A stretch of 64,000 bases of DNA, taken from the NCBI RefSeq assembly GCF_024267655.1, contig NZ_CP100595.1, positions 2,542,001-2,606,000 on the forward strand, written 5' to 3'. This DNA is from Arcobacter roscoffensis (GTDB lineage Bacteria > Campylobacterota > Campylobacteria > Campylobacterales > Arcobacteraceae). A program made the translations under genes and the position numbers. Of this stretch, positions 663 through 16,344 are shown in pieces; within the stretch, counting starts at the first letter, position 1, and the number at the start of each line of letters is the position of its first letter. The notes beneath the pieces were generated by a model, which did no database searches, was not told the DNA's origin, and was given only the letters and a program-made list of their open reading frames with translations.

Positions 663-2702
663 TTATAAAGATTCTAAATATTCATCAAAGCCAATAAGTT
701 TAAAGTCAATAAGGGCATCTTTATAAGCCTGCGTAATATATTGCTTTGCACTTGAAATCTTAAGTTCTTGAATTAGCTGTACAGCCGTTAAAAAGTCTGC
801 ATCCTTATCATTCAAAATTGCTTTAATTAATGAAATTTGAATTGAAGCGTCATTATATCTTCCTGCTTCAAGTAAACCAGCAACTAAAAGATACATCGTA
901 TACTTATCCTCAAGTTTATACTCTTTTTGCAAATACTCAATTGTTTTGATAGTCTCATCAGGTTTACCCAAATGCAAATCACTTAAAGCCTTAGTTCGAA
1001 GATAAGATGGAGACTTTTTACCCACGATTGTTAAATCAGCTTTTTTCATTAAGCCAATTGCTTTTAAAATATCAATATAATATTTTGTGATAATAAGTGG
1101 ACCTTCTAAAAAATTATTATTAAGAGTTAAAGGAACACTATCTTGTAATCTAGAGAAATACTTATAATTACTCTCATTTTCATTTCTATAGACTAACCTC
1201 ATTAAATATGTCAAAGGGTCTTTAAAGTGTTTTGATAATAAAGGATGATCTATTGTATGTTCATTATTTTTTAGCTTTTCTAAATAGTCTAAAGCCTTAG
1301 AAAAAATAGTGTTTTTATAAGATAATGCTTCTTTTTCAAACTTATATTCTTCATTTATAAATAGTTTATACACTTTTTTAGCAAAATAGTTATAAGTTCC
1401 TTCTTTTGATCTTATTATTGCATCAATATAATCTTGATCTTTTAGTTTTTTTCCTAATTTATTTGCTGTTATAAGAGTCATTACAGCATATAATTTATTA
1501 CCAGGATTTAACTTAAAAGCTTTTTGAAAATGCTTATGAGCATTAAAATAATCTTGAATATGTGTGTACGATAATGCTAAATTATAATATATGTAAGACT
1601 TAGTATCTGTGGCTAAAAGTTTTTTTAGTTTAACCACTCTTATTATAGGATCTTCTTTTATAATACTTAAAAATTTATTGTTATACTCTACCATTTCTTC
1701 TAAAGAGTCTAGATTACCTTGTGAATTAAAAATAAAGCCTTTTGAACTATCATAAATAATCTCTTGAGAATCTGAAAAAATAAATGGTGCGAAATAGAAT
1801 AAAAAACTATAATTTCGATCATCATCAAATTTCAATACAAAATCTAAATAGTCTTTTGCTGTGTATTTATTTTCATTAAAAAATATTTCTAATGGTAAAT
1901 CTTGATTGGCTTTAAAAATAGATTTTCTTTCTTGTATTAAATCCAAATTCTCTCTTAATCTTTCAATATTATTAGATTTTAAATCTATAAAAACTCTAAA
2001 CCAAAGAATATGATTTAATCTATTAGGATTCAAAGTATTATTTTGAGCTTTTTCTAAAAGAATATTTGCTTTTTCATAATCTTTTAATTTTATATATAAA
2101 AGAGCTTTTTTTAAATCCATTGCATAATCCATTGCATTTAAAATTTTTAAAGCACTTTTGTACTCTTTTAATATTATATAAGTATCAGCAAGCATTCTTT
2201 TTGAATGTTCAGTTAAATCCTTATATTTCCTTGCAATTTTTACAATAGTGTCTAAGTACTTATTATCTTTTGAAATTTGATATAAATAATAACAAGCTGA
2301 CATATATGAATAAGTATTAGTATTAGAAGCTGTTTTATTTTCATAAATACTATTTAAATAAACAATTGCTTTATCAATAGCACCTAATTTATAATAAGCA
2401 ATTCCAATATTTAGTTTTGATGGTATTTCTATTATAGGAGAAGTTCTTTCAAGAATTTCTATAGCTTTTTTATATTCACCTTTTCCTAAAAAAAGCACTG
2501 CTTTATTAAACTCAACTTGTATAGCTAAGTTCTCTTGTGTTTTTTTTAATTTATCATATTGAAAAAGTATCTCTGGTTGAGACTCTATTAACTCATTTTT
2601 AGCATATAAAGTACTATTAAAAATAGCAAATACTAATACTATTTTATATACTAAAATATTTGTTAATTTATTTTTTCTAAACCATTGTGTTAACTTGTGC
2701 AT
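663..2702 (-). CDS. TPR-repeat membrane/periplasmic protein in the flagellar cluster
   Basis: A protein of about 680 residues with a hydrophobic N-terminal segment (ILVYKIVLVFAIFNSTLYA), either a signal peptide or an anchor. It is followed by many helix-turn-helix units with TPR spacing, for example KGEYKKAIEILERTSP, KEYKSALKILNAMDY and IQDYFNAHKHFQKAFKLNPGN. The reading frame is open back to an ATG at 2735, but that start overlaps the upstream gene by 59 bases. The ATG at 2702 (overlap 26) is preferred and is not certain. TPR proteins in the periplasm scaffold protein assemblies. In Campylobacter and Helicobacter the TPR protein PflA has this role in the flagellar motor. Equivalence to PflA is inference from context, not recognised homology. 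Confidence 0.6.
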   Translation of the reverse strand: MHKLTQWFRKNKLTNILVYKIVLVFAIFNSTLYAKNELIESQPEILFQYDKLKKTQENLAIQVEFNKAVLFLGKGEYKKAIEILERTSPIIEIPSKLNIGIAYYKLGAIDKAIVYLNSIYENKTASNTNTYSYMSACYYLYQISKDNKYLDTIVKIARKYKDLTEHSKRMLADTYIILKEYKSALKILNAMDYAMDLKKALLYIKLKDYEKANILLEKAQNNTLNPNRLNHILWFRVFIDLKSNNIERLRENLDLIQERKSIFKANQDLPLEIFFNENKYTAKDYLDFVLKFDDDRNYSFLFYFAPFIFSDSQEIIYDSSKGFIFNSQGNLDSLEEMVEYNNKFLSIIKEDPIIRVVKLKKLLATDTKSYIYYNLALSYTHIQDYFNAHKHFQKAFKLNPGNKLYAVMTLITANKLGKKLKDQDYIDAIIRSKEGTYNYFAKKVYKLFINEEYKFEKEALSYKNTIFSKALDYLEKLKNNEHTIDHPLLSKHFKDPLTYLMRLVYRNENESNYKYFSRLQDSVPLTLNNNFLEGPLIITKYYIDILKAIGLMKKADLTIVGKKSPSYLRTKALSDLHLGKPDETIKTIEYLQKEYKLEDKYTMYLLVAGLLEAGRYNDASIQISLIKAILNDKDADFLTAVQLIQELKISSAKQYITQAYKDALIDFKLIGFDEYLESL

Positions 2703-3021
2703 ATAACTCTTCATTTCTACTTTCAAGTTCATCAACTCTATGTCTTAGATTCATATTTTCAAGTCTTGCTTCTTGTAAATCATCCCTTGCAACTTGAAGA
2801 TTATCATGACTATTTGATAATGTGTTTGAACTAATTTTTGCTTGTTTTTCATATCTATCAACTATTTTTTGCAACTTACTAATTTCTTCTTCTAACAAAT
2901 TCTTTTCTTCATTTACTTTTCGATACAAAGACTTGTATACATTAGCACTTGAGAAAAAATATAATAATAAGATTCCAATAATTGTAATTAATAAAAAATT
3001 TTCCAAAACTATCCTACGCAA
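2677..3021 (-). CDS. Bitopic coiled-coil protein of the flagellar cluster
   Basis: A 114-residue protein with one N-terminal membrane helix (about residues 7-26, NFLLITIIGILLLYFFSSA). The rest is almost entirely predicted coiled coil (EEKNLLEEEISKLQKIVDRY and later heptads to residue 110). The arrangement suggests an inner-membrane anchor with a rod reaching into the periplasm or cytoplasm. It lies between flgE and the TPR gene, overlapping the latter, so the two are probably translated together. I do not recognise a named family. A role as a motor or envelope scaffold piece is inference from position and architecture. Confidence 0.6.
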   Translation of the reverse strand: MRRIVLENFLLITIIGILLLYFFSSANVYKSLYRKVNEEKNLLEEEISKLQKIVDRYEKQAKISSNTLSNSHDNLQVARDDLQEARLENMNLRHRVDELESRNEELYAQVNTMV

Positions 3022-3025
3022 TTTA

Positions 3026-3052
3026 AGTAAAGTAGTATAATACTACTTCACT
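3026..3052 (-). terminator. Hairpin downstream of flgE
   Basis: AAGTAGTA (3030-3037) and TACTACTT (3041-3048) form an 8-bp stem with a 3-base loop. It extends by AGT/ACT across a mismatch, to 3026-3052. It begins three bases after the flgE stop codon. The following U run is short, so it may be a partial terminator or a 3'-end stabiliser rather than a full stop before the coiled-coil gene. Confidence 0.4.
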
Positions 3053-3054
3053 TA

Positions 3055-5286
3055 TTATCTTTTTAAGTTGATTAATGTGTTTAATAACTGATCTGAAGTT
3101 GTGATTGATTTAGCATTTGCTTCAAAGGCTCTTTGGAATACCATAAGATTTACTAAACTTTCACTTAAATCAGCTGTACTAAGTTCTAAAGTTTTACCTT
3201 CAACTTTTGCAGTTTTGTCATTATTTAAGTTATAAATAGGCTCACCTGACTCATTTGTCTTAGCAAGTAAGTTATCACCTGATGGATTTAAGCCTCTATT
3301 ATTATTAAATAAAGCAATTGCTACTTGACCAATTGCAAAATCAGCTCCATCTTGTTTCATCATAATAAGACCAGTACTATCAACTGAGAACTCACCAAAG
3401 GCTGAATCTGAAATACCTAAAGTATCAAGTCTTAATTGTAATGAACCTTTTGTAGCAGTTTGATCTACTTTATTTATAAGTTCAATAAACTCAGCACCGG
3501 CACCTTGTCTTCCACTGTAATCATTATTTTTATCAAGTGGAGTATATACAGCTGTTAGGTTTGCACCAGCTGTATCTGTAGTATGATCATCAGCAATTTT
3601 CATAGAACCTGTAAATTCTACATCATAATTTTCATTTAATGTTTCAATTACTAAGTGTCCATTTACATTTTTTGCAACTATATGATCAGGTAAGTTATTT
3701 GTTACTGTTGATGTAGTACCATCCTCTGATGAATAAGTAATTCTTGAACTATCATTAATAGCTGCAACAATATCATCTATTGATGTAACACCATCTAAGT
3801 GAATATTTAAAGCATTTGGAGGAGTTGCACCATCATTTGGAATTGGTACACTTTGACCTAACTCTTTATCATAGATTGTAATACCATATGTAAAGTCTTT
3901 TGTAACACTCCCATCTTTTGCCAATGATAAATCACTAGTAGTATAAACATCTCTTTGCTTACCAGTAATAAGTTTAGATAAAGCATCTTTTGATGACTCT
4001 AGTGCTCCAATACCTTCACCTTTTTTAGCTGCAATTGTTGTTAAATAATTACCTTGTACTGTTGTGTTACCTGAACTCTCACCCACTTCTGATATTGTAA
4101 ACTCTTGTCCTGGTATAAGTGATTTAATCTGTATTATACCTTTTGACATTTGGTATAAATCATGAGAATTTGGACTTAATGTATCATCTAATTCTAATAC
4201 ATCATTATTTGTTCCTCCACCCTCATCTGATATATGTGCTACTAAGCCTGGTACTTCATCAGAAATCTTATTTGCTAAACCTTTATATGTCTCAATTCTA
4301 CTTGCTATCATATTTAAAGTATCTTTTTGTGCACTTGTTAGAGCATCAATTTCTGCATCTGTTGGAGGTGATGATAATGTTCCTGTTGCAGGTAAACTAT
4401 AATCTGCTAGGTATGCATCTCCAAATGGTGTATTTGCAGCTGCATCTACATAAAAGTCTTTAATCCATTGTTCAGTTGCTGTTGTTGATATATATGTTTG
4501 TGATTTTTTTACACCATCTATAAATACATATATTTCTTCACCCTCTTTACTTACTAGTGAGTCTGCATCTGATGTTTTAAAGTTAATATGTGATACTTGT
4601 GCTGTTGATGTTGCTGATGCTCCATCTGGCTCTTCTGATAATCTTTGTAGCCACGTAGCATAATCTTTTATTGCAGCTTCAATATCTGATACTTTTGCAG
4701 ATTTACTTTTATATCCTGCTCCGTCAAATACTGTTTCTGAGTCACCCTTTGCTGTTTGAGTATAATCAGTGGCTTTTGCTGTAATTGTTTCTACATATGT
4801 ACTATGTTTTATGATTTTTGATGATAAAAGTTTAGTATAATCATTTGTAAATACATTTACATTTGGATTTGTACTTGTTACATCTTTTTGTGGATCAATT
4901 GAAGTCATCATCCAACCTTGAACTTCATTTCCTGCTGAATCTTGAAGGGTTCCATTATCACCCATTCTGAAGTTTCCGGCTCTTGTATAGAAGTTCTCAG
5001 TTGTTCCTGTTGCTCTTGTATTTGCAACTGTAAAGAAACCCTCACCACTTAAGGCCATATCGTAATCAACACCTGTTAATTTTAGGTTACCTTGTGTGTA
5101 TAGTTTCTCTGCATCTAATATCTTTGAACCTTTACCAATTCTATCTTGGTACATTTGGTCTGCAAATGATATTCTTGATGACTTAAATCCGATTGTATTT
5201 ACATTGGCAATATTATTTGATTCATTGTCTAATGCTTGTTGTTGTGAAGATAGTCCAGATATCCCCGTCCATAGTGCGCCAATCAT
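3055..5286 (-). CDS. flgE: Flagellar hook protein FlgE
   Basis: A 743-residue hook protein. The N terminus has the rod/hook signature (ALDNESNNIANVNTIGFKSS), followed by GEGFFTVAN and YTRAGNFRMGDNGTLQ. The C terminus has the matching helix (LMVFQRAFEANAKSITTSDQ). These terminal helices form the inner tube of the hook. The long centre (about residues 150-640) is low in conserved features and rich in Thr/Ser/Asp, as expected for the surface-exposed variable domains of large Campylobacterota hook proteins. An AAGGA ribosome binding site lies close to the ATG. It is the second of two flgE-type genes in tandem; the hairpins at 5310-5354 sit in its leader. Confidence 0.93.
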   Translation of the reverse strand: MIGALWTGISGLSSQQQALDNESNNIANVNTIGFKSSRISFADQMYQDRIGKGSKILDAEKLYTQGNLKLTGVDYDMALSGEGFFTVANTRATGTTENFYTRAGNFRMGDNGTLQDSAGNEVQGWMMTSIDPQKDVTSTNPNVNVFTNDYTKLLSSKIIKHSTYVETITAKATDYTQTAKGDSETVFDGAGYKSKSAKVSDIEAAIKDYATWLQRLSEEPDGASATSTAQVSHINFKTSDADSLVSKEGEEIYVFIDGVKKSQTYISTTATEQWIKDFYVDAAANTPFGDAYLADYSLPATGTLSSPPTDAEIDALTSAQKDTLNMIASRIETYKGLANKISDEVPGLVAHISDEGGGTNNDVLELDDTLSPNSHDLYQMSKGIIQIKSLIPGQEFTISEVGESSGNTTVQGNYLTTIAAKKGEGIGALESSKDALSKLITGKQRDVYTTSDLSLAKDGSVTKDFTYGITIYDKELGQSVPIPNDGATPPNALNIHLDGVTSIDDIVAAINDSSRITYSSEDGTTSTVTNNLPDHIVAKNVNGHLVIETLNENYDVEFTGSMKIADDHTTDTAGANLTAVYTPLDKNNDYSGRQGAGAEFIELINKVDQTATKGSLQLRLDTLGISDSAFGEFSVDSTGLIMMKQDGADFAIGQVAIALFNNNRGLNPSGDNLLAKTNESGEPIYNLNNDKTAKVEGKTLELSTADLSESLVNLMVFQRAFEANAKSITTSDQLLNTLINLKR

Positions 5287-5309
5287 GATTTATCCTTTTT
5301 ATAAAAATG

Positions 5310-5326
5310 GTGAACAAAATGTTCAC
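5310..5326. repeat. Inverted repeat in the flgE leader (inner)
   Basis: GTGAAC-N5-GTTCAC, a perfect 6-bp dyad 23 bases upstream of the flgE ATG. On the minus strand it forms a small hairpin followed by CATTTTTAT. It could be a leader hairpin or an operator. Confidence 0.55.
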
Positions 5327-5354
5327 ATATTAATACTTTAAAAAGTACTAATAT
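5327..5354. repeat. Inverted repeat between the two flgE genes (outer)
   Basis: ATATTAATACTTT and AAAGTACTAATAT form a 13-bp stem with one G-T/A-C position and a 2-base centre. It directly abuts the 5310-5326 dyad, so the flgE leader RNA would start with two stacked hairpins. This may attenuate transcription between the paralogues or protect the flgE message. Confidence 0.5.
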
Positions 5355-5371
5355 GTAAATATTAATAGCTA

Positions 5372-6832
5372 TTATTTCCTAAGATTAATAGCTGTTTTTA
5401 ATAACTCATCAGATGTAGTTATTGACTTTGAATTTGCCTCAAATGCTTTTTGATAAGTTAATAAATTAGTCATAGTGTCAGCATTATCTGTATTACTAAC
5501 TTCTAATGAGTCTTTATGTAAAGTATTAATTTTTCCTGCATACTGTGGTTCTCCTGCTTCTAAACCACTTTTATACAAGTTATTTCCTTGAGGTTCCAAG
5601 CCTTGATCATTTCTAAAAAAAGCTGTTTGAACCTTACCTACTACAAACTTATTGTCTCCATCAGATAAATAAATAATACCCTCATCTATACTAATAGAAC
5701 CAAAAGTATATTCTGAAAGATTTAAATTTGCTAACTTCATTTGTATATCATTAACCTGTAATGCTTCTTGATTTTGTAAGTTTATAGTGCTAGTTATTTC
5801 AATAAACTCAGAACCAGCTGCTTCAACAGCTGCTTTTAATGCATCTCTAGCACTTATTACAATTCCATAACCTGTACCTAAACTTTGATTTTGAATTTGA
5901 TTAATAGAAGCTGCTTTATCATTTACAGCTACATCATATATAGCTATTTCTTTTGCTGGTATCATAGATTCTACAGTAACTTTTCCAATTGTAGTATCTA
6001 CATAAGAATTCATACCTTGAATACTAGATATTTTATCTGCAAATAATCTCATAGTAGTATCAATATCCGTGTCAAATTGTTGTCTTACTTCTCTATTGTT
6101 AATATTAACTTTAATGAAATCGTTTTCATTATTTAATTCTGATAAATAACTACTAAAATCCAAACTTGTGATTTGATTTTGAGAAAGAGTCGCTTCCTGT
6201 GTTGATACTGATCTATATAAATCTAATTTATCTTTATAATCAGTAATTAAAGCTTCAATATCAACTACTTTTGAACTAGCTCTCTTAAAACCTTCTCCAC
6301 TAATTCCACTAGTTTGGGCAGTATTTGAATAGTCACCAATTCGTGCATTTATTGTTTGAATAAAATTTTCATTACCAATATTTTCACTTGCAACAAAATT
6401 TGAATGAACTTTGCCTAACTGAATATAATCAGGATTAGTTGTTATTACTTGGGGTTCTTGTGGAATTAAACCTTGAACTTTTAGTCCATCTGGTGTTTGT
6501 AATAAGCCATCAGCCCCTAACTGAAAATTTCCAGCTCTTGAATAGTAAAGTTCATTATTTTGGGGGTCATTTACCATAAAATAACCCTTACCCTCAATAC
6601 CTATGTCTAAACTATGACCTGTTGGTTTAATATCACCTTGTTGGAATCTTTTAAATACTTGCTCAATTTGGACACCACTACCAGTACCATTTTTGTACAT
6701 TAAATCTTCAAATCTAACATCGTTAGCCTTATATCCAACAGTATTAGTATTTGAAGAATTATTTGATTCAGCTGTTAAAGCTTTTTCATATGTATTTAAG
6801 CCAGAATATCCATTCCAAAGTCCACCAATCAT
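5372..6832 (-). CDS. flgE: Second FlgE-type flagellar hook/basal-body protein
   Basis: A 486-residue paralogue of the neighbouring hook gene. It keeps EGKGYFMVNDPQNNELYYSRAG near residue 90 and a C-terminal helix LLTYQKAFEANSKSITTSDE almost identical to that of flgE. The N-terminal rod motif is altered: SNNSSNTNTVGYKAND replaces the usual NNIANVNTxGFK. It lies 9 bases after flgD, whose product caps growing hooks, so it is probably co-transcribed with flgD. Whether it builds the proximal hook, serves under other conditions or is a minor component cannot be read from sequence. Being a real structural protein is very likely; the precise role is open. Confidence 0.85.
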   Translation of the reverse strand: MIGGLWNGYSGLNTYEKALTAESNNSSNTNTVGYKANDVRFEDLMYKNGTGSGVQIEQVFKRFQQGDIKPTGHSLDIGIEGKGYFMVNDPQNNELYYSRAGNFQLGADGLLQTPDGLKVQGLIPQEPQVITTNPDYIQLGKVHSNFVASENIGNENFIQTINARIGDYSNTAQTSGISGEGFKRASSKVVDIEALITDYKDKLDLYRSVSTQEATLSQNQITSLDFSSYLSELNNENDFIKVNINNREVRQQFDTDIDTTMRLFADKISSIQGMNSYVDTTIGKVTVESMIPAKEIAIYDVAVNDKAASINQIQNQSLGTGYGIVISARDALKAAVEAAGSEFIEITSTINLQNQEALQVNDIQMKLANLNLSEYTFGSISIDEGIIYLSDGDNKFVVGKVQTAFFRNDQGLEPQGNNLYKSGLEAGEPQYAGKINTLHKDSLEVSNTDNADTMTNLLTYQKAFEANSKSITTSDELLKTAINLRK

Positions 6833-6841
6833 AATTTATCC

Positions 6842-7528
6842 TTAGAATATTTTAGTTAAATTAGAAAATGGTATGGAAGTTAATTGATCAGAGAATACTG
6901 GCGTTGTAGCTCCTGCTAACTCATATTTATGATCTGTTATTTCTTCATTATTTTTATCAAGAATAACAAGTTTTCCATCTCTTACTAAAGGAAGGCCTGG
7001 CTCTTGTAATACTATTTTATTATCAGTAACATTTCCGTCATTATCTAAAATCTCACCTTTAACATTATAATTAACTAAAGTATCAGATGATTCATCATCA
7101 GCAGCAGTTAATTTAACCCTGTCTTCATAATATAATATTTGTTGAGCTTTTACCTGCACTTGACCATCAACTGTTTCAACAGACCTTACAGTATAAGCTT
7201 TAGTTATTCCATTTTCGCCAATATTACCATCTTCTACATTTTTTCCTATAACATTAGCAGCATTTGATAATGCAGTTTGTGCATAAGAAGTCTGCAATGA
7301 AGCCATAGCTTTTACCATTTCTTGATTTGTACTAATAGTTGACATTTGCATTTGAGAAGCCAACATTTGTTTTGAATCCATAGGTTTTGTAGGATCTTGT
7401 AGCTTTAATTCTTGAATCATTAGTTTTAAAAAGTCGTCATTCGTTAATTCATCATTACTAACAGAAGAAGTATAGGCATTTCCATCAACACCTGTACTTG
7501 TATTTACTTGAACATTATCAACAGCCAT
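6842..7528 (-). CDS. flgD: Flagellar hook assembly scaffold protein FlgD
   Basis: A 228-residue hook-capping protein. The N-terminal region has the FlgD signature DFLKLMIQELKLQDPTKPMD, followed by SQMQMSTISTNQEMVKAM (residues about 30-75). A beta-rich C-terminal region follows, which forms the cap exposed at the hook tip. FlgD is exported through the flagellar secretion system and directs polymerisation of FlgE. It is followed by the two flgE genes, consistent with its job. The gene begins 10 bases after fliN and shares that operon. Confidence 0.9.
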   Translation of the reverse strand: MAVDNVQVNTSTGVDGNAYTSSVSNDELTNDDFLKLMIQELKLQDPTKPMDSKQMLASQMQMSTISTNQEMVKAMASLQTSYAQTALSNAANVIGKNVEDGNIGENGITKAYTVRSVETVDGQVQVKAQQILYYEDRVKLTAADDESSDTLVNYNVKGEILDNDGNVTDNKIVLQEPGLPLVRDGKLVILDKNNEEITDHKYELAGATTPVFSDQLTSIPFSNLTKIF

Positions 7529-7538
7529 AATATAACTC

Positions 7539-7832
7539 CTATACTAAATTTTCATCAAAGAAGTATCTAACAACATTGTCTGAATCCATTGCATCTTGAA
7601 CCCTTACAGCCAACTTATCATCAATTACAATAATATCACCTGTACCAATAATTCTTTGATTTACATATATATCTCCACCAGCTCCCGCTAGCTTGTCCAA
7701 TGAAATTATGTCTCCATCACCTAGTTTTAAAAACTCAGCAATAGTAATATTAGAATTCCCTAACATTACATCAACAGTAATTTCCGTATCAACTAATATA
7801 TCATAATCTCTTTCACTTATTTCCATAACCAA
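7539..7832 (-). CDS. fliN: Flagellar motor switch protein FliN
   Basis: This 97-residue protein is essentially one SpoA domain: VDTEITVDVMLGNSNITIAEFLKLGDGDIISLDKL, then DIYVNQRIIGTGDIIVIDDKLAVRV. FliN forms the lower ring of the switch and helps dock the export ATPase complex through FliH, encoded just upstream. The short length fits the Campylobacterota FliN, which coexists with a longer FliY. A -10 element lies at 7862-7867, so the fliN-flgD-flgE segment may have its own transcript. Confidence 0.9.
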   Translation of the reverse strand: MVMEISERDYDILVDTEITVDVMLGNSNITIAEFLKLGDGDIISLDKLAGAGGDIYVNQRIIGTGDIIVIDDKLAVRVQDAMDSDNVVRYFFDENLV

Positions 7833-7861
7833 ACTTTTATAAAAAATATTATTCTATATAC

Positions 7862-7867
7862 ATTATA
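7862..7867 (-). promoter_or_regulatory. Promoter -10 element upstream of fliN
   Basis: TATAAT on the minus strand in the 75-base fliH-fliN gap, giving a leader of about 23 bases. No matching -35 and no sigma-54 type GG/GC element were seen here. Confidence 0.45.
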
Positions 7868-7907
7868 ACATAAAATTTTGAGAAATTAAATAGCAGGCAA
7901 TGTTTAA

Positions 7908-8576
7908 TTAAATAACAGTATCTAGGGTCTCTAGCATTGAAGCAACTTTTGCTTCTATATTTCCATCAAAGTTACCCAAATCACTAGCAATTACTACTCC
8001 ACCAGCAGCAACATTAGCATCTTCTCTTAATTCTATATAAGGTTCAAGTGCTAATTGATCTTTTAAAAGTTGATAATCTTTTGGATTTAAATGAATCTGA
8101 ACCTTTGAAGCAGTTTTAATTTTATCAAGTAAATGAGAAATTGTTTGTTTTGCAATTTTAGCTGAATTCTCTCCAACCTCAATACTAATTATTTTTTGTG
8201 CAATTGAAATAGAAGTTTTTAAAAGCTTTGATTCCATTTGAAAAGTTGCTTGTTCAAAAAAAGCAGCATAATGCTTTAAATCTTTTATTGCTTGTACAAC
8301 TTGAGTATCAATATCTCTACCTTGAACCCCACCATTTTCAATACTATTAACTTTTTGTGAAATTTGATTAATTTGTGCTGCAAGATTTCTTACTTCACTT
8401 AATACAGGATCAATATGACCATTTAATTCTCTTGTATCTAACACTGCTTGCCTTGTAGGAGCTGGTTCTTCTTGTACATTATTTGAACCATTTACAAAAT
8501 TACCTAATTCGTACTTTTGAACTTCACCACTTCCATTTAAAACTTTTGCATTTGATCGAACATTATTGCTTGCCAT
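7908..8576 (-). CDS. fliH: Flagellar assembly protein FliH
   Basis: A 222-residue regulator of the flagellar export ATPase FliI. The N-terminal 90 residues are Asn/Gln-rich and partly coiled coil (VRNLAAQINQISQKVNSIEN). The C-terminal domain has the FliH/HrpE pattern: LLKTSISIAQKIISIEVGEN, then VQIHLNPKDYQLLKDQL, then LREDANVAAGGVVIASDLGNFDGNIEAKV. Its start overlaps the fliG stop by one base (TAATG), so translation is coupled. The N terminus is expected to bind FliN and tether the ATPase to the C ring. Confidence 0.88.
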   Translation of the reverse strand: MASNNVRSNAKVLNGSGEVQKYELGNFVNGSNNVQEEPAPTRQAVLDTRELNGHIDPVLSEVRNLAAQINQISQKVNSIENGGVQGRDIDTQVVQAIKDLKHYAAFFEQATFQMESKLLKTSISIAQKIISIEVGENSAKIAKQTISHLLDKIKTASKVQIHLNPKDYQLLKDQLALEPYIELREDANVAAGGVVIASDLGNFDGNIEAKVASMLETLDTVI

Positions 8577-9589
8577 TATTCATCCATTTCTCTATCAATG
8601 ATTCCATCTTCAATCATTTTTTGTGCAACATCAAGCATCTTTCTTTGAGAAGCTTCAATATCTTTAATTTTAACTTTATTAAGCATCTCAAACTCTTCTT
8701 TAAATCTATCTCTAGCTCTTTGAGACATTGCACCTGTAATTTTCTCCATGTCTTCATCTGGAGCATTTTTCATAGCAACAGCTACATCTCCTGTATCTAC
8801 ATTTTGTAAAATCTTCATTACATATTCAGTTTCAAGATTTAATAAATCTTCAAATACAAACATATTTTCCTTAATTTTAGTTGCTAAAGAAGTATCTACA
8901 CCATTGATATTCTTTAGAATATCTTGTGATTTTGGACCTAATCTATTTAACATATCAGCAACAACTTTTACACCACCAACATCAACAATAGAAGAAAGTA
9001 ATGATTCAAGCTTTTTCTCAAGTACAACAGAAATAGTTCTTACAACATCTGGTGAAACATCTTTTATTGTTGCCATTTGCATAGTAACTTTAACTCTTAC
9101 TTCTTCTTCAAGTTGCATTAAAACTTCAGCTGATTTAGGAGCATCCATATGTGATAAAATTACAGCTATCGTATGAGGTGACTCATCTTTAATAAAATCT
9201 GATAATTGTTTTGGATTAATAGCATCTAAATAAGAAAACGACTGAGAAGCTAACTGTAATCTTGATAGTTTTGCTAATACTTCATCAGCTTCACCTTTTC
9301 CAAGTGATTTATATAAAATATCTCTAGCAAAATCATAACCACCAGAACTAATAAAACCTTTTGTTCTTGTATATAAATGAAACTCTTCTAAAATAGCTAA
9401 GGATGTTTCTTTATCAATAGAGTTTATTTGAGTAATTGCAGTTGAAATATCTTCTACTGTATCTTTGGGTAAGTGTTGAAATATCTTTACAGTTGCCTCT
9501 TCTCCAATCAAAACAAAGAATCTAGCAACCTTGTCTTTCATAGACATACCTTTTAAAACTTCATGTAAGTTACTATTCGCTTCTGCCAT
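8576..9589 (-). CDS. fliG: Flagellar motor switch protein FliG
   Basis: A 337-residue switch protein of normal length. The N-terminal domain binds FliF and the middle domain has the conserved DESPHTIAVILSHMDAPKSA segment (usual EHPQxxA). The C-terminal torque domain has the charged helix SQRARDRFKEEFEML that faces the stator. It sits between fliF and fliH with one-base TAATG overlaps on both sides, so the three proteins are probably made in a coupled fashion. Confidence 0.95.
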   Translation of the reverse strand: MAEANSNLHEVLKGMSMKDKVARFFVLIGEEATVKIFQHLPKDTVEDISTAITQINSIDKETSLAILEEFHLYTRTKGFISSGGYDFARDILYKSLGKGEADEVLAKLSRLQLASQSFSYLDAINPKQLSDFIKDESPHTIAVILSHMDAPKSAEVLMQLEEEVRVKVTMQMATIKDVSPDVVRTISVVLEKKLESLLSSIVDVGGVKVVADMLNRLGPKSQDILKNINGVDTSLATKIKENMFVFEDLLNLETEYVMKILQNVDTGDVAVAMKNAPDEDMEKITGAMSQRARDRFKEEFEMLNKVKIKDIEASQRKMLDVAQKMIEDGIIDREMDE

Positions 9590-11325
9590 TATTTCTTACC
9601 TTTTAAATTTGCATCACCTTCTGATAATAAAAGTTCAATCATGGATGCCATTTCAGCTGGATTATTATTTACTTCTTTATCTAGCTCTTCAACTAAAACT
9701 TCATATTTTGCAGCTGATTCTTCATCTAAGCCTTCAATATTATTTAATATCTGACTTTTGATTTTACTTTTTAATCTTCCCTTAGCTGATTCCCTATCAA
9801 ATTGATCTCCATAATCTCCCAACATATCATCAACAAGATTTTCATCATCTACTTCATCTTTTTTCTTAGTAGTACCATCACCTAAGATCACAACTTCATG
9901 GTTTACAATAAATTTTTTATAGAATATAAATAATAAAACAGCTGCTATTAAGTACTGAATATACTCACTAAACTCTTTAAGTATAGTTTTAACCATAGCT
10001 AAAGTATTTAATGAAGATGTTGAAGAGTCAACTTCTATTGGATTACCATTTTCATCAAGCTGTACACCGTTTGCTGAAATTGGTTTAACTCCAATAAATT
10101 TAAAGTCTCTTACAGTAACCTTATCTCCTCTTTTACTATCATATCCAACAGTGTCCTGAACAATTGATTCAATTGAAGCTAAAAATTCTTCTTTGTTTTC
10201 AACATCATTTAATACAGTTGAATCAAAAGTAACCCCAGCTGTAATTCTATTGATTCTTGAATAGTTATTATCTTTTTGTTTTATTATCTTTTTAGAGATC
10301 TCATAATTTGTAACAGTATTTGTTCCTTCACTATTTGATTGTGAGTTCCCATTACCAGCTGCACCACCTGGAGTCTGTATATTATTATCAACTCCAGCTG
10401 CTCCACCCGCTCCACCTGCTGTACCTTGTGATGAAGATATATTTTCTATTACTTGTTGTGATCGTATAGTTCCTTCTGGATCATAAATCTCTTCTTGAAT
10501 ATCTTGCATAATAAAATCAAGTGAAACTGAAACTTTTGCAACAACTCTACCATGTCCCACAAAAGGTTCTAATAATTCAACTATCTTTTTTTCATAATCA
10601 TCTTCAATTTTCTTTTTATATTTTGATTGTGAATATGACTTTTGCGTAGCCATATCATCTTTAGATTTCTGAAGTAAACTTCCATCTTGATCAATTAACT
10701 TGATATTATCATGAGTTAAATCAGGAACGGCTGATGCTATAAAGTTTTTGATACCATCAATTTGCTTTTGAGTTAAAAAAACACCAGGCTTTAAAGATAA
10801 AACTGCTGATGCAGTTGGAAGTGTTTTTCTTTCTGTAAAAATAGTGTCTTTAGGAATAGCTATTTTTACACTTGCTCTTAATACACCAGTTAAAGACTCT
10901 AGTGATCTTGAAAGTTCACCTTCAAGTGCTCTTAAATACTTTACTTTATTCTCAAAATTAGTTGTACCCAATGATGACTTTTCAAAAATTTCCCATCCTA
11001 CATGCTTACTAGTTGAGGCTTCACTTGTCACAAGTTTAATTTTTGCAATATTGATAAACTCTTTTGAGGTTTTTAATGTAAGATTATTACCTGAACCAAT
11101 AACACTAAAAGCAATTCCTGAAGCCTCAAGCTCATCACTAGCTAACATCACTTGTGATTTTGTTAAATTTGAAGCAATTGTATAGTTTAGTTTTTTATCT
11201 TCAGCTTTAATATTTGAATAAACCAATAGACCAATCAATAATATAAATAAAAGAGAAAATCCCCCAATAATAACTGCTCTTTGAGCAGCATTTAAATTAT
11301 TTATAAATTTTAGAAGTTGATCCAT
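9589..11325 (-). CDS. fliF: Flagellar MS-ring protein FliF
   Basis: A 578-residue MS-ring protein with two membrane helices, near residues 16-38 (AVIIGGFSLLFILLIGLLVY) and 447-465 (YIQYLIAAVLLFIFYKKF). The ring-building periplasmic region between them includes LRALEGELSRSLESL and ASAVLSLKPG. A Gly/Asn/Ala-rich insert near residues 295-330 is typical of the variable loop. The C-terminal tail (NNPAEMASMIELLLSEGD) is the FliG-binding segment. It follows flgB by 16 bases. Confidence 0.95.
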   Translation of the reverse strand: MDQLLKFINNLNAAQRAVIIGGFSLLFILLIGLLVYSNIKAEDKKLNYTIASNLTKSQVMLASDELEASGIAFSVIGSGNNLTLKTSKEFINIAKIKLVTSEASTSKHVGWEIFEKSSLGTTNFENKVKYLRALEGELSRSLESLTGVLRASVKIAIPKDTIFTERKTLPTASAVLSLKPGVFLTQKQIDGIKNFIASAVPDLTHDNIKLIDQDGSLLQKSKDDMATQKSYSQSKYKKKIEDDYEKKIVELLEPFVGHGRVVAKVSVSLDFIMQDIQEEIYDPEGTIRSQQVIENISSSQGTAGGAGGAAGVDNNIQTPGGAAGNGNSQSNSEGTNTVTNYEISKKIIKQKDNNYSRINRITAGVTFDSTVLNDVENKEEFLASIESIVQDTVGYDSKRGDKVTVRDFKFIGVKPISANGVQLDENGNPIEVDSSTSSLNTLAMVKTILKEFSEYIQYLIAAVLLFIFYKKFIVNHEVVILGDGTTKKKDEVDDENLVDDMLGDYGDQFDRESAKGRLKSKIKSQILNNIEGLDEESAAKYEVLVEELDKEVNNNPAEMASMIELLLSEGDANLKGKK

Positions 11326-11341
11326 ATATTATTTATCCTGA

Positions 11342-11749
11342 TTAATTTTTAGCTGATGATTCAATAACTGATCTAAATAGTCTCGAATCTTTTTTAATTG
11401 CTGCTTGCAATGCGTCAAAAATTACTTTATTTTTTGACATTTCACTCATTTGAGTATCTAAGTTTACATTATTTCCATCATTTTGTTCTTCTAAACCTTT
11501 TACTTGAACTAATCTAGGATTAGGAATATTAGAATTATGATTTATACTTGGTAAATGCTGACCACTTGTTTGAGCTAAAGCTAATCTAGGCTCTTTTTTT
11601 TGACTTGCTAGTTCATCTTCAAAAACTAATTCTTTAGTTTTATAATTTGGGGTATTTATATTAGCAAGATTACTTGATATTACTTTTTGTCTCTCACCCC
11701 TAAAGTTTAAATGTGCAAAGAGTGTGTTTGTTACGCTACTTGCTTCCAT
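11342..11749 (-). CDS. flgB: Flagellar basal-body rod protein FlgB
   Basis: A 135-residue proximal rod protein. The N-terminal motif SSNLANINTPNYKTKELVFE and the C-terminal NDGNNVNLDTQMSEMSKN are the two FlgB hallmarks. Rod proteins stack on the FliF ring, and fliF is the next gene. flgC and fliE, which often follow flgB, are not between flgB and fliF here and are not elsewhere in the window. It shares one base with the upstream gene (TAATG). Confidence 0.88.
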   Translation of the reverse strand: MEASSVTNTLFAHLNFRGERQKVISSNLANINTPNYKTKELVFEDELASQKKEPRLALAQTSGQHLPSINHNSNIPNPRLVQVKGLEEQNDGNNVNLDTQMSEMSKNKVIFDALQAAIKKDSRLFRSVIESSAKN

Positions 11750-12468
11750 TATCTAGTATTGTTCCCTATTTTATCAATTAATTTAGAGTTTATTTCATCA
11801 ATAGTTGAAATTGCCTTTTGAGATTGTTCAAACCTTCTATGAGCATCAATTAGTTCAACCATCGCTGTAACTGAATTTACATTTGATTTTTCAATTGCTC
11901 CTTGCTCTAAAAGGCCATCATTATTTTCAAACAATAAAACCTCATTTTCATCTTTAAGTTTATAAGTATTATTGCCTATTTTCTGAAGATTTGTATATGG
12001 AATTTGTGCAACACCTATATTGTTTTCAAAACCCTCTTCTAAAAGAACTGGTTCATTATCAGTATTAAGTACATTATTTCCATTTGAATCAACTATAAAA
12101 CCATCAAAAACTTTAAAGGCACCATCTCTACTATAAACAATGTCTCCATTTTGATTTTGTATTTTAAAAAAGGTATCTGGTTGGTTTAATGCAAAATCTA
12201 AATTATTTCCAGTTGGAGCTATTGGTCCCATTTCGCCATTTATATATTTTGCATCAATTTTTGGAATATTATTTGTAACTTCATTAATTTTTGTTGGAAC
12301 AAAGCCTTCATTTTTTGATCTTTGAAGGTAATGATTAAAAGTAGTTTCTGTTGTTCCTTCTTGTTTAAATCCATTTGTATTAACATTTGCTAAGTTATTA
12401 CTTATTTGATCTAATCTATTTATTTGATTGACCATAGATGCAGCAAGAGGGTATGTTCCTTGATTCAT
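11749..12468 (-). CDS. Flagellar basal-body rod protein, FlgF/FlgG family
   Basis: A 239-residue rod-type protein with ISNNLANVNTNGFKQEG near residue 25, the TPTGNNLDFAL-type core (IAPTGNNLDFALNQPDTFFKIQN), YSRDGAFKV and a C-terminal EKSNVNSVTAMVELIDAHRRFEQSQK helix. These place it in the FlgF/FlgG family. A canonical flgG lies across the divergent gap at 14076-14864, so this is more likely the FlgF counterpart. It lies between cheZ and flgB in the minus-strand operon. Confidence 0.75.
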   Translation of the reverse strand: MNQGTYPLAASMVNQINRLDQISNNLANVNTNGFKQEGTTETTFNHYLQRSKNEGFVPTKINEVTNNIPKIDAKYINGEMGPIAPTGNNLDFALNQPDTFFKIQNQNGDIVYSRDGAFKVFDGFIVDSNGNNVLNTDNEPVLLEEGFENNIGVAQIPYTNLQKIGNNTYKLKDENEVLLFENNDGLLEQGAIEKSNVNSVTAMVELIDAHRRFEQSQKAISTIDEINSKLIDKIGNNTR

Positions 12469-12477
12469 TAAATGTCC

Positions 12478-13521
12478 TTACTTCCCAAACTCTTCAATTA
12501 ATTTATCTAAATCTTCACCAATTAATACTTCACCTTGATCACCATGAATATGTTTTGCAACTGCAATTTCTTGTTCAGTGTAATCATCTTCAAATAAATT
12601 GTTAAGATATAATGAAAGCTTTCTAATAACAGACATAACTCTTTCAATTTTTTGTCTATTAATATCATTAAACTGCATAAGCTCCATAGCTTCAAAGATT
12701 TTCATATCTTCTTCATTCATTATAGTTTTCATAGCTTCTAAACTTTTATTTACTTCTTCAACTTTTTGAACATGTTGTTTAAAAACTTCTATATTTGGAA
12801 ATTTTGCATTTAATGATTTTAATAACTTATCTTGAGAAACTAAAAAATCTTCAATATCAGAAACTTTAGTTCTAAATTCATTATTATTATCTAAACCAAG
12901 ACTTAATACATCAAAAATTTGAGAAACTTTCTCTTCTGAGTCATTTGCTACTTGGTTTAATTGATTTACAACTTTTGTATCTTTTTCAGCAGGTAATGGT
13001 ATCACACCTTCATTTATTTTTGTATCTGTCCAATCTTGCACAATTTTTTCTGCACTCACTTCTTCTTTCTTAGGTTCAGATTTTTGTGTTACCGCATCTA
13101 CACTAGGAGCATCTTCTGTAATTCCATCGATTTGAGATAATAAATCATCTATATCGTCAGATGAAGCTTGCTCATTTGAAGTATTTAGTTCCAAGTCATC
13201 TAAAATATCATCTGTTTTCACTTCTTCATCTACTTCATCGTTTATGTCAAAATCTTTTAATAAAGCATCAATATCATCATTATCTACAGTTACATTAGGA
13301 GTTTCAATATCTTTTGTTTCTTCTATATCTTTTACTTCGGGAACAGAAGGCTCTTCTTGAACTGTTTCAATTTTTTCTTCATTTTGTGTTTGAGAAATTA
13401 ATTCATCAATTTCACTTGTATCAACTACTTCAGTTGATTCTTCTGATGATTTAGATGTTTCTTCATCGGAAATGTCAAGTCCATTCATCAATGCTTCAAT
13501 TTCTTCTTGACTCATACTCAT
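12478..13521 (-). CDS. cheZ: CheZ-type CheY-P phosphatase with an extended N-terminal peptide array
   Basis: This 347-residue protein matches the Campylobacterota CheZ pattern. The C-terminal half holds a long helical hairpin with MELMQFNDINRQKIERV near residues 279-295. In it D286 and Q290 keep the spacing of the catalytic Asp/Gln pair of E. coli CheZ (D143, Q147). The very C terminus, GEDLDKLIEEFGK, resembles the CheY-binding tail helix of CheZ. The first 135 residues are acidic and carry five FliM-like peptides: residues 4-14 (SQEEIEALMNG), 35-44, 81-91 (NDDIDALLKDF), 103-112 and 121-131. It is 17 bases downstream of cheY, its substrate. Confidence 0.85.
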   Translation of the reverse strand: MSMSQEEIEALMNGLDISDEETSKSSEESTEVVDTSEIDELISQTQNEEKIETVQEEPSVPEVKDIEETKDIETPNVTVDNDDIDALLKDFDINDEVDEEVKTDDILDDLELNTSNEQASSDDIDDLLSQIDGITEDAPSVDAVTQKSEPKKEEVSAEKIVQDWTDTKINEGVIPLPAEKDTKVVNQLNQVANDSEEKVSQIFDVLSLGLDNNNEFRTKVSDIEDFLVSQDKLLKSLNAKFPNIEVFKQHVQKVEEVNKSLEAMKTIMNEEDMKIFEAMELMQFNDINRQKIERVMSVIRKLSLYLNNLFEDDYTEQEIAVAKHIHGDQGEVLIGEDLDKLIEEFGK

Positions 13522-13538
13522 AATAATGCCTTATTAAC

Positions 13539-13913
13539 TTATTTTTTTAATACCCCATCAAGCTTCTCTTTTAAAACTTCTGCATTGAATGGTTTTACAA
13601 TATAATTATTCACTCCAGCTTTTAAAGCTGTAATAACTTCACCCTTACCACCTTCTGTTGTAATCATGATAATAGGAGTCTTTTGATGAGCACCTTCTGC
13701 TCTAACTTTTTTTACTAAATCTAAACCATTCATATTAGGCATATTCCAGTCAGTTAAAATAACATCGTAGTTAGACTCACCTAATAGTTTCCAAGCTTTA
13801 ACACCATCTTCAGCCTCATCAAAATCATCTTTTGCGTAACCTAACTGCATTACAACATTACCAATAATTCTCCTCATAGTAGAACTATCATCAACTATTA
13901 GAATTCTCATCAT
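13539..13913 (-). CDS. cheY: Chemotaxis response regulator CheY
   Basis: A 124-residue single-domain receiver. Acidic pocket residues are D8 and D9 (LIVDDSS). The phospho-acceptor is D55 (ILTDWNMPNMNG), with a switch Thr in IIMITTEGG and a Lys in YIVKPF. CheY-P binds the motor switch and reverses rotation. Two Met codons stand in a row at the start; either could be used. A -10 element and a 10-bp palindrome lie directly upstream (13933-13957). cheZ follows. Confidence 0.95.
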   Translation of the reverse strand: MMRILIVDDSSTMRRIIGNVVMQLGYAKDDFDEAEDGVKAWKLLGESNYDVILTDWNMPNMNGLDLVKKVRAEGAHQKTPIIMITTEGGKGEVITALKAGVNNYIVKPFNAEVLKEKLDGVLKK

Positions 13914-13932
13914 ACTACCCTTTAATCTTTAT

Positions 13933-13957
13933 TAATATTCAATTATTGAATATTATA
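13933..13957 (-). promoter_or_regulatory. cheY promoter overlapped by a perfect palindrome
   Basis: A -10 element (TATAAT on the minus strand, 13952-13957) overlaps a 10-bp inverted repeat with a 3-base centre (TAATATTCAA at 13933-13942, TTGAATATTA at 13946-13955). The dyad therefore covers the -10 and the probable transcription start, the position of a repressor operator. It lies in the 162-base cheY-flgG divergent gap. Confidence 0.5.
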
Positions 13958-14037
13958 TATAATTTGTTTTAAATATCCACTTAATCTAAACTGATAAATA
14001 ACTATATAGATTTATCTTTTTTTAATTGTTCTTAAAA

Positions 14038-14052
14038 TATAATAAATATAAT
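14038..14052 (+). promoter_or_regulatory. Tandem -10 elements upstream of flgG
   Basis: Two TATAAT hexamers (14038-14043 and 14047-14052) lie 23-38 bases before the flgG ATG. The ribosome binding site (AAAGGAAA) follows closely. No -24/-12 sigma-54 pattern is seen. The region is very AT-rich, so one hexamer may be fortuitous. Confidence 0.4.
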
Positions 14053-14075
14053 CTAAAACTCTCAAAGGAAATTCA

Positions 14076-14864
14076 ATGATAAGAGGACTTTACACTGCTG
14101 CAACAGGTATGAATTCTATGCAACATCAAATTGATGTTACTTCAAACAATATTGCAAACGTAAATTCAACAGGTTTTAAACAAGATAGAGCTGAATTTCA
14201 AGATTTAATTTATGAAACTTTAAACTACACAGCAGGTCAAACTTCACAAACAACTCTAAATCCAACTGGTATTGATGTTGGTTTAGGTGTAAGAATTTCT
14301 GGTATTCAAAAAAACTTTACAGAAGGTGACTTAAAACTTACTTCAAATCCTTTAGATATAGCTATAGAAGGAAATGGTTTCTTTCAAATAACTCTGCCAA
14401 GTGGAGAGACTGCATATACAAGAAATGGTACATTTAAACTTAATGCTGAGGGAACTGTTGTAAATGGTAATGGCTACCCACTTTCACCACAAATAGTGGT
14501 ACCTGATAATGTTACTAAATTAACTGTAGGGAAAGATGGAACAGTTACAGCAACAAATCCTCAAACAGAAGAAATAGTAAATTTAGGGCAAATTGAAATT
14601 GCTGATTTTATTAATCCAGCAGGATTAGCTCCTATGGGTGAGTCTTTGTTTAGAGAAACAGAAGCCTCAGGTGCAGTTTTAACAGGAAATCCAACTACAG
14701 AGCAGTTTGGTAATACTAGACAAGGTATGATTGAGTTATCAAACGTTAAACTTGTAAACGAGATGGTAGATTTAATTACAGCTCAAAGAGCATATGAAGC
14801 AAATTCTAAGGCAATTACAACTACTGATGGTATGCTTGATACTGTTAATAGGTTAAAAAGATAG
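14076..14864 (+). CDS. flgG: Flagellar distal rod protein FlgG
   Basis: A 262-residue distal rod protein of canonical length. It starts MIRGLYTAATGMNSMQHQID, has VTSNNIANVNSTGFKQDRAEFQDLIYE, then LKLTSNPLDIAIEGNGFFQI and YTRNGTFKLNAEG. It ends with VNEMVDLITAQRAYEANSKA and TTDGMLDTVNRLKR. It is divergent from cheY and leads a short plus-strand unit with two charged coiled-coil genes. Confidence 0.97.
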   Translation: MIRGLYTAATGMNSMQHQIDVTSNNIANVNSTGFKQDRAEFQDLIYETLNYTAGQTSQTTLNPTGIDVGLGVRISGIQKNFTEGDLKLTSNPLDIAIEGNGFFQITLPSGETAYTRNGTFKLNAEGTVVNGNGYPLSPQIVVPDNVTKLTVGKDGTVTATNPQTEEIVNLGQIEIADFINPAGLAPMGESLFRETEASGAVLTGNPTTEQFGNTRQGMIELSNVKLVNEMVDLITAQRAYEANSKAITTTDGMLDTVNRLKR

Positions 14865-14879
14865 GTAACTAAATAAAAT

Positions 14880-15293
14880 ATGGATTTAAATGAATTAAAA
14901 AAACTTCGAGAAGAAAAATTTTTAGCTCATAAAAGAAAAAAAAGAGAGTATTACTTAAAAAATAAAGCAAAGAAAAAAAGAGAAGTTATTGATTATGAAA
15001 ATGAATTAAATGACTTAAACTTTGCAAGTAAAATAAAAGAAATTGCAAAAGTACAAAAAGCTCATGTTGATGATAGAAAAGAGCTTATAGTAGCAAAAAT
15101 CAATGAATACAAAGACAAGAAAAAAGAGTATTACGAAGAGAATAAAGAAAAAAGATTAGAATACGATAAAGAATATAGAGAAAAGAAAAAAGAAGAATTA
15201 AGAGAATATAGACGTCAATATTATCAAAAGAATAAAGAGAAAATATTAGCTAGGCAAAAAGAAAAAAGAAAATATCCCAAAAAGAGTGACTAA
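14880..15293 (+). CDS. Lys/Glu-rich repeat protein of unknown function
   Basis: A 137-residue protein made almost only of Lys, Glu, Arg, Tyr, Asn and Leu, predicted to be one long charged helix. A short motif recurs: EYYLKNKAKKKRE, EYYEENKEKRLEY and QYYQKNKEKILARQ. It starts 15 bases after flgG and its stop codon overlaps the next ATG (TAATG), so it is in an operon with flgG and the membrane coiled-coil gene. I know no function. Similar YYxxNKEK repeats occur as low-complexity runs in unrelated proteins, so family assignment by BLAST would be unsafe. Confidence 0.6.
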   Translation: MDLNELKKLREEKFLAHKRKKREYYLKNKAKKKREVIDYENELNDLNFASKIKEIAKVQKAHVDDRKELIVAKINEYKDKKKEYYEENKEKRLEYDKEYREKKKEELREYRRQYYQKNKEKILARQKEKRKYPKKSD

Positions 15294-16344
15294 TGGCAGA
15301 AGAACAAAAAGAAGAAGAGTTAGAATTAACGCTAGAAGAGACAGACTCTTCGGGGATAATAATGCAACACAAGATGATGATAATTCAAGTAATGAGTCAA
15401 ATAAAGAAGAATCATCTGATGAAGAACCAAGCTTTAAAAAGAAAAAAGATGATAATAAAATCAAAAAAATACTTTTTGGAGTAATTGGCTTTTTAGTTTT
15501 AGTACTTATAATTGGTCTTATACTTTTCTTAATGGGCTTTTTTGACCCAGAAGAAATAAAAGAAGAAATGCCTGCTAAAACATCAACACAAAAACAAATT
15601 GTTCAGCCTCAGAATGAATATAAATTTAGCTTAAAAGACGTAAATACTGATAATCTAAATAAAGAACTTTCAAGACTTACAAATAAAGATATCTTAGCTA
15701 AAAAAGAACAAGACAAAATAGAACAACAAAAGCAGATGCTAGAGAAAGAAAAAGAAGAATATAAAGAAAAACTTTCTCAACAAGAAGAAGAACTAACAAA
15801 AGAAAAAGAACTACTTCAAGCAAAAAAAGAAAAACTTGAAACTCAAAAAAATGAACTTGAACTTTTAAAAGAGCAAGCAAAGTCTTTAAAAGAAGAAATG
15901 TTAAGAGAAAAAGAAATACTTGAAGTTGAAAGAGAAAAATTAATTCTTGCTCAAATGGAAATAGAAAATACTATTAAACATGAAGAGAACAAAAAAGAAC
16001 AAGAGATGTCAAAACAAACACCATCAAAGGAAATAATAACTACATCTGATGAACAAATGTACACAAATACAAATGAATCTATTGATACAAAGTTTGTAAA
16101 TCTAATTAATGTGGCAAAAATAAAAGGTGAGCTATTTAAAGAGTATTTAGACAAAGTTCTAGCTATTCATAATGATGTATTATTATGTAGAGATGATTTC
16201 AATAATATTGAAGTGTATTTTGGACCATTTGACAACAATAACCAAAGAAGCGAAGTATTTAATAAGTTAAATAATAGTGATTTTTCAAATGCTTATGAAG
16301 TTGAATTAACAAGAGAAGAGTTTGATAAAAGATGTAATTATTAG
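15293..16344 (+). CDS. Membrane-anchored coiled-coil protein (apparent frameshift near the N terminus)
   Basis: The main reading frame ends at 16344 and encodes, in order: an acidic Asp/Asn/Ser-rich stretch, a Lys patch, one membrane helix (FGVIGFLVLVLIIGLILFLMGF), a long Glu/Lys coiled coil, and a small C-terminal domain (VYFGPFDNNNQRSEVFNKL) of SPOR-like appearance. The coupled ATG at 15293 (TAATG) opens MAEEQKEEELELTLEETDSSG in another frame, which joins the main frame only if one base is added in the GGGG at 15352-15355. The main frame alone would start at a GTG (15286) with an implausible Arg-rich leader. It may be a true frameshift, a sequencing error or a slippage site. Likely an envelope protein tied to flagella by operon position. 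Confidence 0.6.

Follow-up and report, generated by a model that had tools for sequence, protein, structure and literature searches.

A gene beside flgG in the assembled genome of Arcobacter roscoffensis is one base short at or near a run of four G residues

Among the closest described systems is rcsD of Yersinia pestis, a membrane-protein gene and putative pseudogene through a 1-bp deletion that is reported to be still functional, its HPt product being initiated at an AUU codon (PMC10191623). Here we analyzed a stretch of 64,000 nucleotides from the chromosome sequence of Arcobacter roscoffensis (assembly GCF_024267655.1, contig NZ_CP100595.1, positions 2,542,001 to 2,606,000; hereafter the window), in which the second gene downstream of flgG is divided between two reading frames. 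The features of the locus, numbered from the first base of the window, are as follows.

14076..14864, + strand: flgG, flagellar basal-body rod protein (TIGR02488, E 3.6e-105, above cut-off)
14880..15293, + strand: small coiled-coil gene (137 aa) that separates flgG from the broken gene (ORF; 86% identity in the relative G091; matched in 26 of 27 loci)
15280..15286, + strand: Shine-Dalgarno-like AAAAGAG upstream of the ATG, its last G being the first base of GTG 15286 (sequence)
15286..15288, + strand: GTG, with no other standard start codon in the long frame ahead of the membrane segment; rejected as the true start (ORFs, relatives, codon usage)
15293..15351, + strand: authentic 5' end of the gene, from the ATG through the acidic N terminus MAEEQKEEELELTLEETDS (likeness to the relatives' MAEE/MADE-type N termini; codon usage)
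15341..15365, + strand: interval in which the frame breaks by one base, with GGGG 15352-15355 at its centre (99.8% of the switch-point weight)
15355..16344, + strand: remainder of the gene, with membrane helix, long helix taken as a coiled coil, and SPOR-like C-terminal domain (AlphaFold2 model, fold comparison, family search)
15442..15448, + strand: heptamer A AAA AAG, which lies in the register of the ATG frame and is considered incidental (sequence, codon usage, heptamer counts)

Position of the frame break

Reading of the sequence and its ORFs shows that the frame of ATG 15293 runs to a stop at 15484, while a long frame, offset from it by one base, is open to 16344 and holds all of the membrane, coiled-coil and C-terminal parts that are common to the relatives. 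The ATG (15293-15295) shares one A with the TAA (15291-15293) that ends the preceding ORF (14880-15293). The initial annotation had described this arrangement, including the overlapping stop and start, both frame ends, the GGGG and the register of the heptamer, and all of these proved to be as it had given them; its further remark that GTG 15286 is the only in-frame start of the long frame is true of ATG, GTG and TTG codons upstream of ATG 15532.

The point at which the coding frame changes was located with codon tables that were trained on 40 long ORFs of the window (49,584 bases, the broken gene excluded) and that compare in-frame with off-frame usage. Over 15293-15351 the ATG frame scored +14.5 nats against -3.7 for the long frame, while over 15352-15441 the long frame scored +21.9 nats against -7.1 for the ATG frame. 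When all switch points were considered, a weight of 0.9978 fell within 15341-15365 and the six best points were 15350-15355, on the GGGG, whereas the weight of 15431-15482 was printed as 0.0. Exact runs of four G or four C are common, with 46 in the window. One base is very probably missing at GGGG 15352-15355 or within about 12 nt of it. The initial annotation had preferred a one-base change in the G run over slippage, since the stretch from the run to the heptamer looked coding in the long frame, and codon usage agrees with it on both points.

The presence at 15442-15448 of a canonical X XXY YYZ heptamer, A AAA AAG, in the register of the zero frame speaks for a programmed -1 frameshift, but the 90 nt upstream of it are those that scored +21.9 against -7.1 nats; coding has thus already passed to the long frame between the G run and the heptamer, which is therefore not the switch. 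In-register heptamers of this sequence are, moreover, not rare (6 in 5 of the 41 window ORFs of at least 200 codons), the segment 15454-15533 folds no differently from shuffled sequences (z -0.04; simple shuffles, which do not cover pseudoknots), and the split frame is not conserved among the relatives described below. Slippage at A AAA AAG was rejected on codon usage and relatives, and we attach practically no probability to it.

Relatives and the start of the gene

The genus is represented by one genome, and a search of the family matched 94 of 104 genomes, our own included. From the 93 other family genomes with the gene, 89 loci were fetched, four weak ones (G043, G045, G049 and G052) being left out; L090 gave no local match, and L087 (cut by a contig end) and L089 (badly anchored) were not judged, which leaves 86. 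A single uninterrupted frame from start codon through membrane segment to C terminus was found in 85 of these 86 relatives, and the remaining one (L074) has an in-frame stop directly after the membrane helix. The automatic test, applied to 88 loci, was passed by 81, and L075, L076, L079 and L097 passed by reading; GTG replaces ATG in the first two, and the last residues differ in the other two. The alignment of G005 (L032) crosses a TAG, but this codon lies upstream of the ATG of the G005 gene. A comparison of this kind had been proposed from the outset, and since 85 of the 86 relatives read in one frame, no frameshift is needed in the family. The break in L074 (genome G034) is an independent one of the same gene in another genus, and the frame past its stop remains open.

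A second scan returned 29 loci, 27 of them from this family, partly in the same genomes as the family search and hence not independent of it. In the 27 family loci flgG was matched throughout; for the small coiled-coil gene, for rimM and for cheY the count was 26. No second strain of the species was found, the first contig scan confirming no relative and the second containing none closer than 46% among its 29 loci, from which records of our own genome were possibly excluded. The plasmid collection gave 5 records, all of them partial and distant matches to neighboring genes.

Among the 81 automatically passed relatives the commonest starts are MAE (39) and MAD (9), and a Shine-Dalgarno-like triplet or quartet lies upstream of the ATG in 76 of the 86 judged (L074 counted). 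These N termini bear on the reading in which the long frame makes up the entire gene, with GTG 15286 as its start and an Arg-rich leader. This GTG is in frame, and an Arg-rich cytoplasmic end would suit an N-in membrane helix, but over 15286-15354 the long frame has a score of -4.6 nats, the relatives mostly begin with MAE or MAD, the GTG overlaps the Shine-Dalgarno-like GAG of the ATG, and L018 and L022 have a GTG equally far upstream of their ATG that is out of frame with an intact gene. No Arg-rich leader was seen among the relatives' N termini examined, so the doubt that had been voiced about such a leader was well placed. The GTG start was rejected on the relatives' N termini and codon usage, the open frame being all that supports it, and we hold it to be very improbable. 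An annotation with a GTG start and an Arg-rich leader would therefore be wrong, and no recoding is needed at this locus.

Origin of the missing base

Very probably, this is an ordinary gene that lacks one base in its assembled copy, at or near the GGGG, and the shift is not a programmed one. Translation from the conserved ATG 15293 would give about 20 correct residues, continue in the wrong frame and end at the stop at 15484, before the membrane helix. Since this stop precedes the helix, the sequence as given would yield no anchored protein.

The frame is broken relative to intact orthologues, as in a pseudogene, but no further decay or relaxed constraint was seen in the conserved columns of our copy. 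It retains all invariant columns of three alignments (25/25 in A1 with 15 relatives, 15/15 in A2 with 27, and 10/10 in A3 with 21) and 40/42, 32/33 and 24/24, respectively, of the columns that are 90% conserved, close to the relatives' leave-one-out medians of 0.95, 0.97 and 1.0. Because an old pseudogene is not expected to keep such columns, the base was presumably lost recently or only in the consensus.

Two observations elsewhere in the same assembly bear on this choice. In 264 kb around the window, 208 genes of G091 were matched at 60 bits or more, and one of them is frame-split in our genome, where the sequence near C1:2669302-2669311 is one base shorter than that of G091; a reverse search of 206 of our own genes against G091 flagged only this same gene. 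These counts come from a search that is blind to short N-terminal breaks and that missed the broken flgG-linked gene as well. The split gene (C1:2667605-2669634) is the counterpart of a 677-residue G091 gene, and its frame is divided near the 3' end. The second observation concerns an adhesin-like array (L146 7994-20000) of 29.6 copies of a 405-bp unit at 99%, in which the earlier copies shown read cleanly and several frame breaks are confined to the last copies (coding strand, read in part). Such clustering at one edge of an array suggests a poor repeat consensus, and little can be concluded from a tandem array about errors in unique sequence. Because another one-base shortage and array-clustered breaks occur in the same assembly, we lean towards a residual consensus error at the GGGG as the origin of the shortage, with about even confidence.

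A recent true mutation in the sequenced strain, natural or selected in the laboratory, would leave the gene inactive, and the conservation downstream of the break is compatible with such a recent event. Of 78 syntenic G091 ORFs, 61 matched the window, 60 of them at 60 bits or more, and no other frame break was found among these 60; two flagged G091 rows come from cross-matching between the paralogues at 3058-5286 and 5375-6832, while the broken gene itself was cut by the boundary of the stretch. Since these matches contain no other break, errors are not rife in unique sequence, and a real mutation is quite possible. The in-frame stop of G034 in the same gene also suggests that real loss may occur. 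Against a mutation stand the other one-base shortage and the clustered array breaks of this assembly, and the neighbors at 2680-14861 match G091 nearly end to end and thus give no sign of a general flagellar decay. Overall, we give a true mutation somewhat less than an even chance. One-base losses should in any case be kept in mind when this assembly is read.

A codon-usage scan with looser settings listed 38 raw candidates over 564 kb of our own sequence, against 10 over 274 kb of G091, and many of them look like antisense noise; as close examination covered a few, the broken gene and the one at C1:2669311 among them, no rate was drawn. In the stricter codon-usage scan, an A AAA AAC TAG was found at the joint of two genes on the minus strand (L141 3080-2452), which we take to be a prophage-like tail chaperone pair, and this joint is likely a genuine programmed -1 frameshift.

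A pair of genes for a response regulator and a histidine kinase was also considered as a private frameshift of this genome and was rejected; because the relatives share its layout, it was not counted as an error. The histidine kinase (C1:104542-106333; L132 4542-6333, + strand; relatives L169-L199) has an apparent conserved non-AUG start. All 32 loci read, our own included (32 of the 48 matches listed), have AUA (21), AUC (8) or AUU (3) at the start position, with AGGAG at a spacing of 6 upstream in 22 and no Shine-Dalgarno match in one. Thirteen of the 32 contain no ATG, GTG or TTG between the in-frame stop and the conserved region; in the other 19 such a codon is present, frequently a TTG 6 nt upstream. 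In 24 loci the start position overlaps the upstream ORF, by reading an OmpR-type response regulator, and this overlap could by itself force the codon. The eight without overlap all keep AGGA or GGAG together with AUA, AUU or AUC, and four of them are without a standard start. The kinase may use a conserved AUA/AUU/AUC start. Titles and abstract openings in the literature contained nothing on such a start of a histidine kinase.

Even with a broken frame, a full-length or anchored protein might be made through low-level slippage on the G run or initiation at the GTG. The undecayed downstream part favors this, and Y. pestis rcsD provides a reported precedent (PMC10191623). The G run, as read, contains no X XXY YYZ heptamer in the ATG frame, and no marked structure was found 3' of it (z -1.0; simple shuffles, which do not cover pseudoknots), both of which count against this route, and we regard it as very unlikely. 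That the break is real and that an anchored protein with an altered cytoplasmic end is still made, by G-run slippage or from the GTG, appears highly unlikely as well. If it were true, replacement of the acidic tail by a basic leader would alter how a flagellum-linked membrane protein meets its cytoplasmic partner.

The intact protein and known systems

The intact protein is predicted to begin with an acidic tail, to continue with a membrane helix and a coiled coil, and to end in a SPOR-like domain. The gene fits no Pfam or NCBIfam family above cut-off, and no fitting Pfam family was found in 28 members at E 0.01. An AlphaFold2 model of the long-frame part, built with 28 sequences (mean pLDDT 76.7), contains a helix at residues 34-59, which is the membrane segment, then a long helix (98-218) and, at the C terminus, a domain spanning 247-327 whose pLDDT is about 93. 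The elements of this domain follow the order strand-helix-strand-strand-helix-strand, as expected of SPOR, and model residues 248-323 form an RNP-like fold of about 75 residues. While Foldseek found nothing in the PDB at an E of 0.001 or better, a subsequent fold comparison pointed to SPOR: the best match was the SPOR domain of RlpA (6i09_A; Z 8.9, 2.0 A over 72 residues, 11% identity), followed by a second RlpA entry (Z 8.8), CwlC (7.2), DamX (6.2) and DedD (5.2), values to be read against a Z of 7 to 8 that is typical without a true match and a score of 7.7 for an unrelated exported protein. The Pfam SPOR model (PF05036) had no hit in the 28 family members at E 0.01, and profile A3 found no PDB sequence up to E 10.

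Gene order together with the SPOR-like fold suggests a single-pass link from cytoplasm to cell wall beside the flagellar basal body. On this basis of gene order and fold, the normal protein would be a single-pass inner-membrane protein that reaches peptidoglycan through its coiled coil and SPOR-like domain and serves the flagellum or chemotaxis. SPOR domains as a class bind peptidoglycan glycans that are denuded. Nothing on a SPOR-like membrane family beside flgG/cheY, or on the organism, was found in titles and abstract openings in the literature.

Six distant relatives of the genera g7, g8 and g12 (L086, L091, L092, L094, L096 and L098) carry an extra N-terminal domain of ~170 residues that starts with MAS(D/N)LS. 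In three of the four scanned, CheX was matched weakly and short of the cut-off (E 0.002 at best, in L091; no match in L096), which hints at a link to chemotaxis signaling. In the window, the membrane segment with its flanks (15427-15603) weakly resembles FliL near the N terminus of the latter (NCBIfam NF004285; E 0.0035; 17 bits, cut-off 179), a likeness that also involves two presumably FliL-like Oceanospirillaceae loci, L126 and L127. This resemblance may reflect either homology or mere similarity of membrane anchors.

Among described systems, Y. pestis rcsD shares with the gene studied here a one-base deletion in a membrane-protein gene whose downstream part is kept, and differs in that a retained function is reported for the altered rcsD (PMC10191623). 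With the SPOR proteins RlpA, CwlC, DamX and DedD the predicted model shares the C-terminal fold, and it differs from them in its low identity to the RlpA domain and in the lack of a Pfam SPOR hit across the family members noted above. The same architecture is found in the intact orthologues of the Arcobacteraceae, a protein family without a name that includes members from Poseidonibacter, Malaciobacter, Aliarcobacter, Halarcobacter and Arcobacter. Their identity is 29-46% over the rows of A2, nearly all of the 27 loci have the order flgG, small coiled-coil gene, counterpart of the broken gene and rimM, and, unlike our copy, the orthologues have an unbroken frame.
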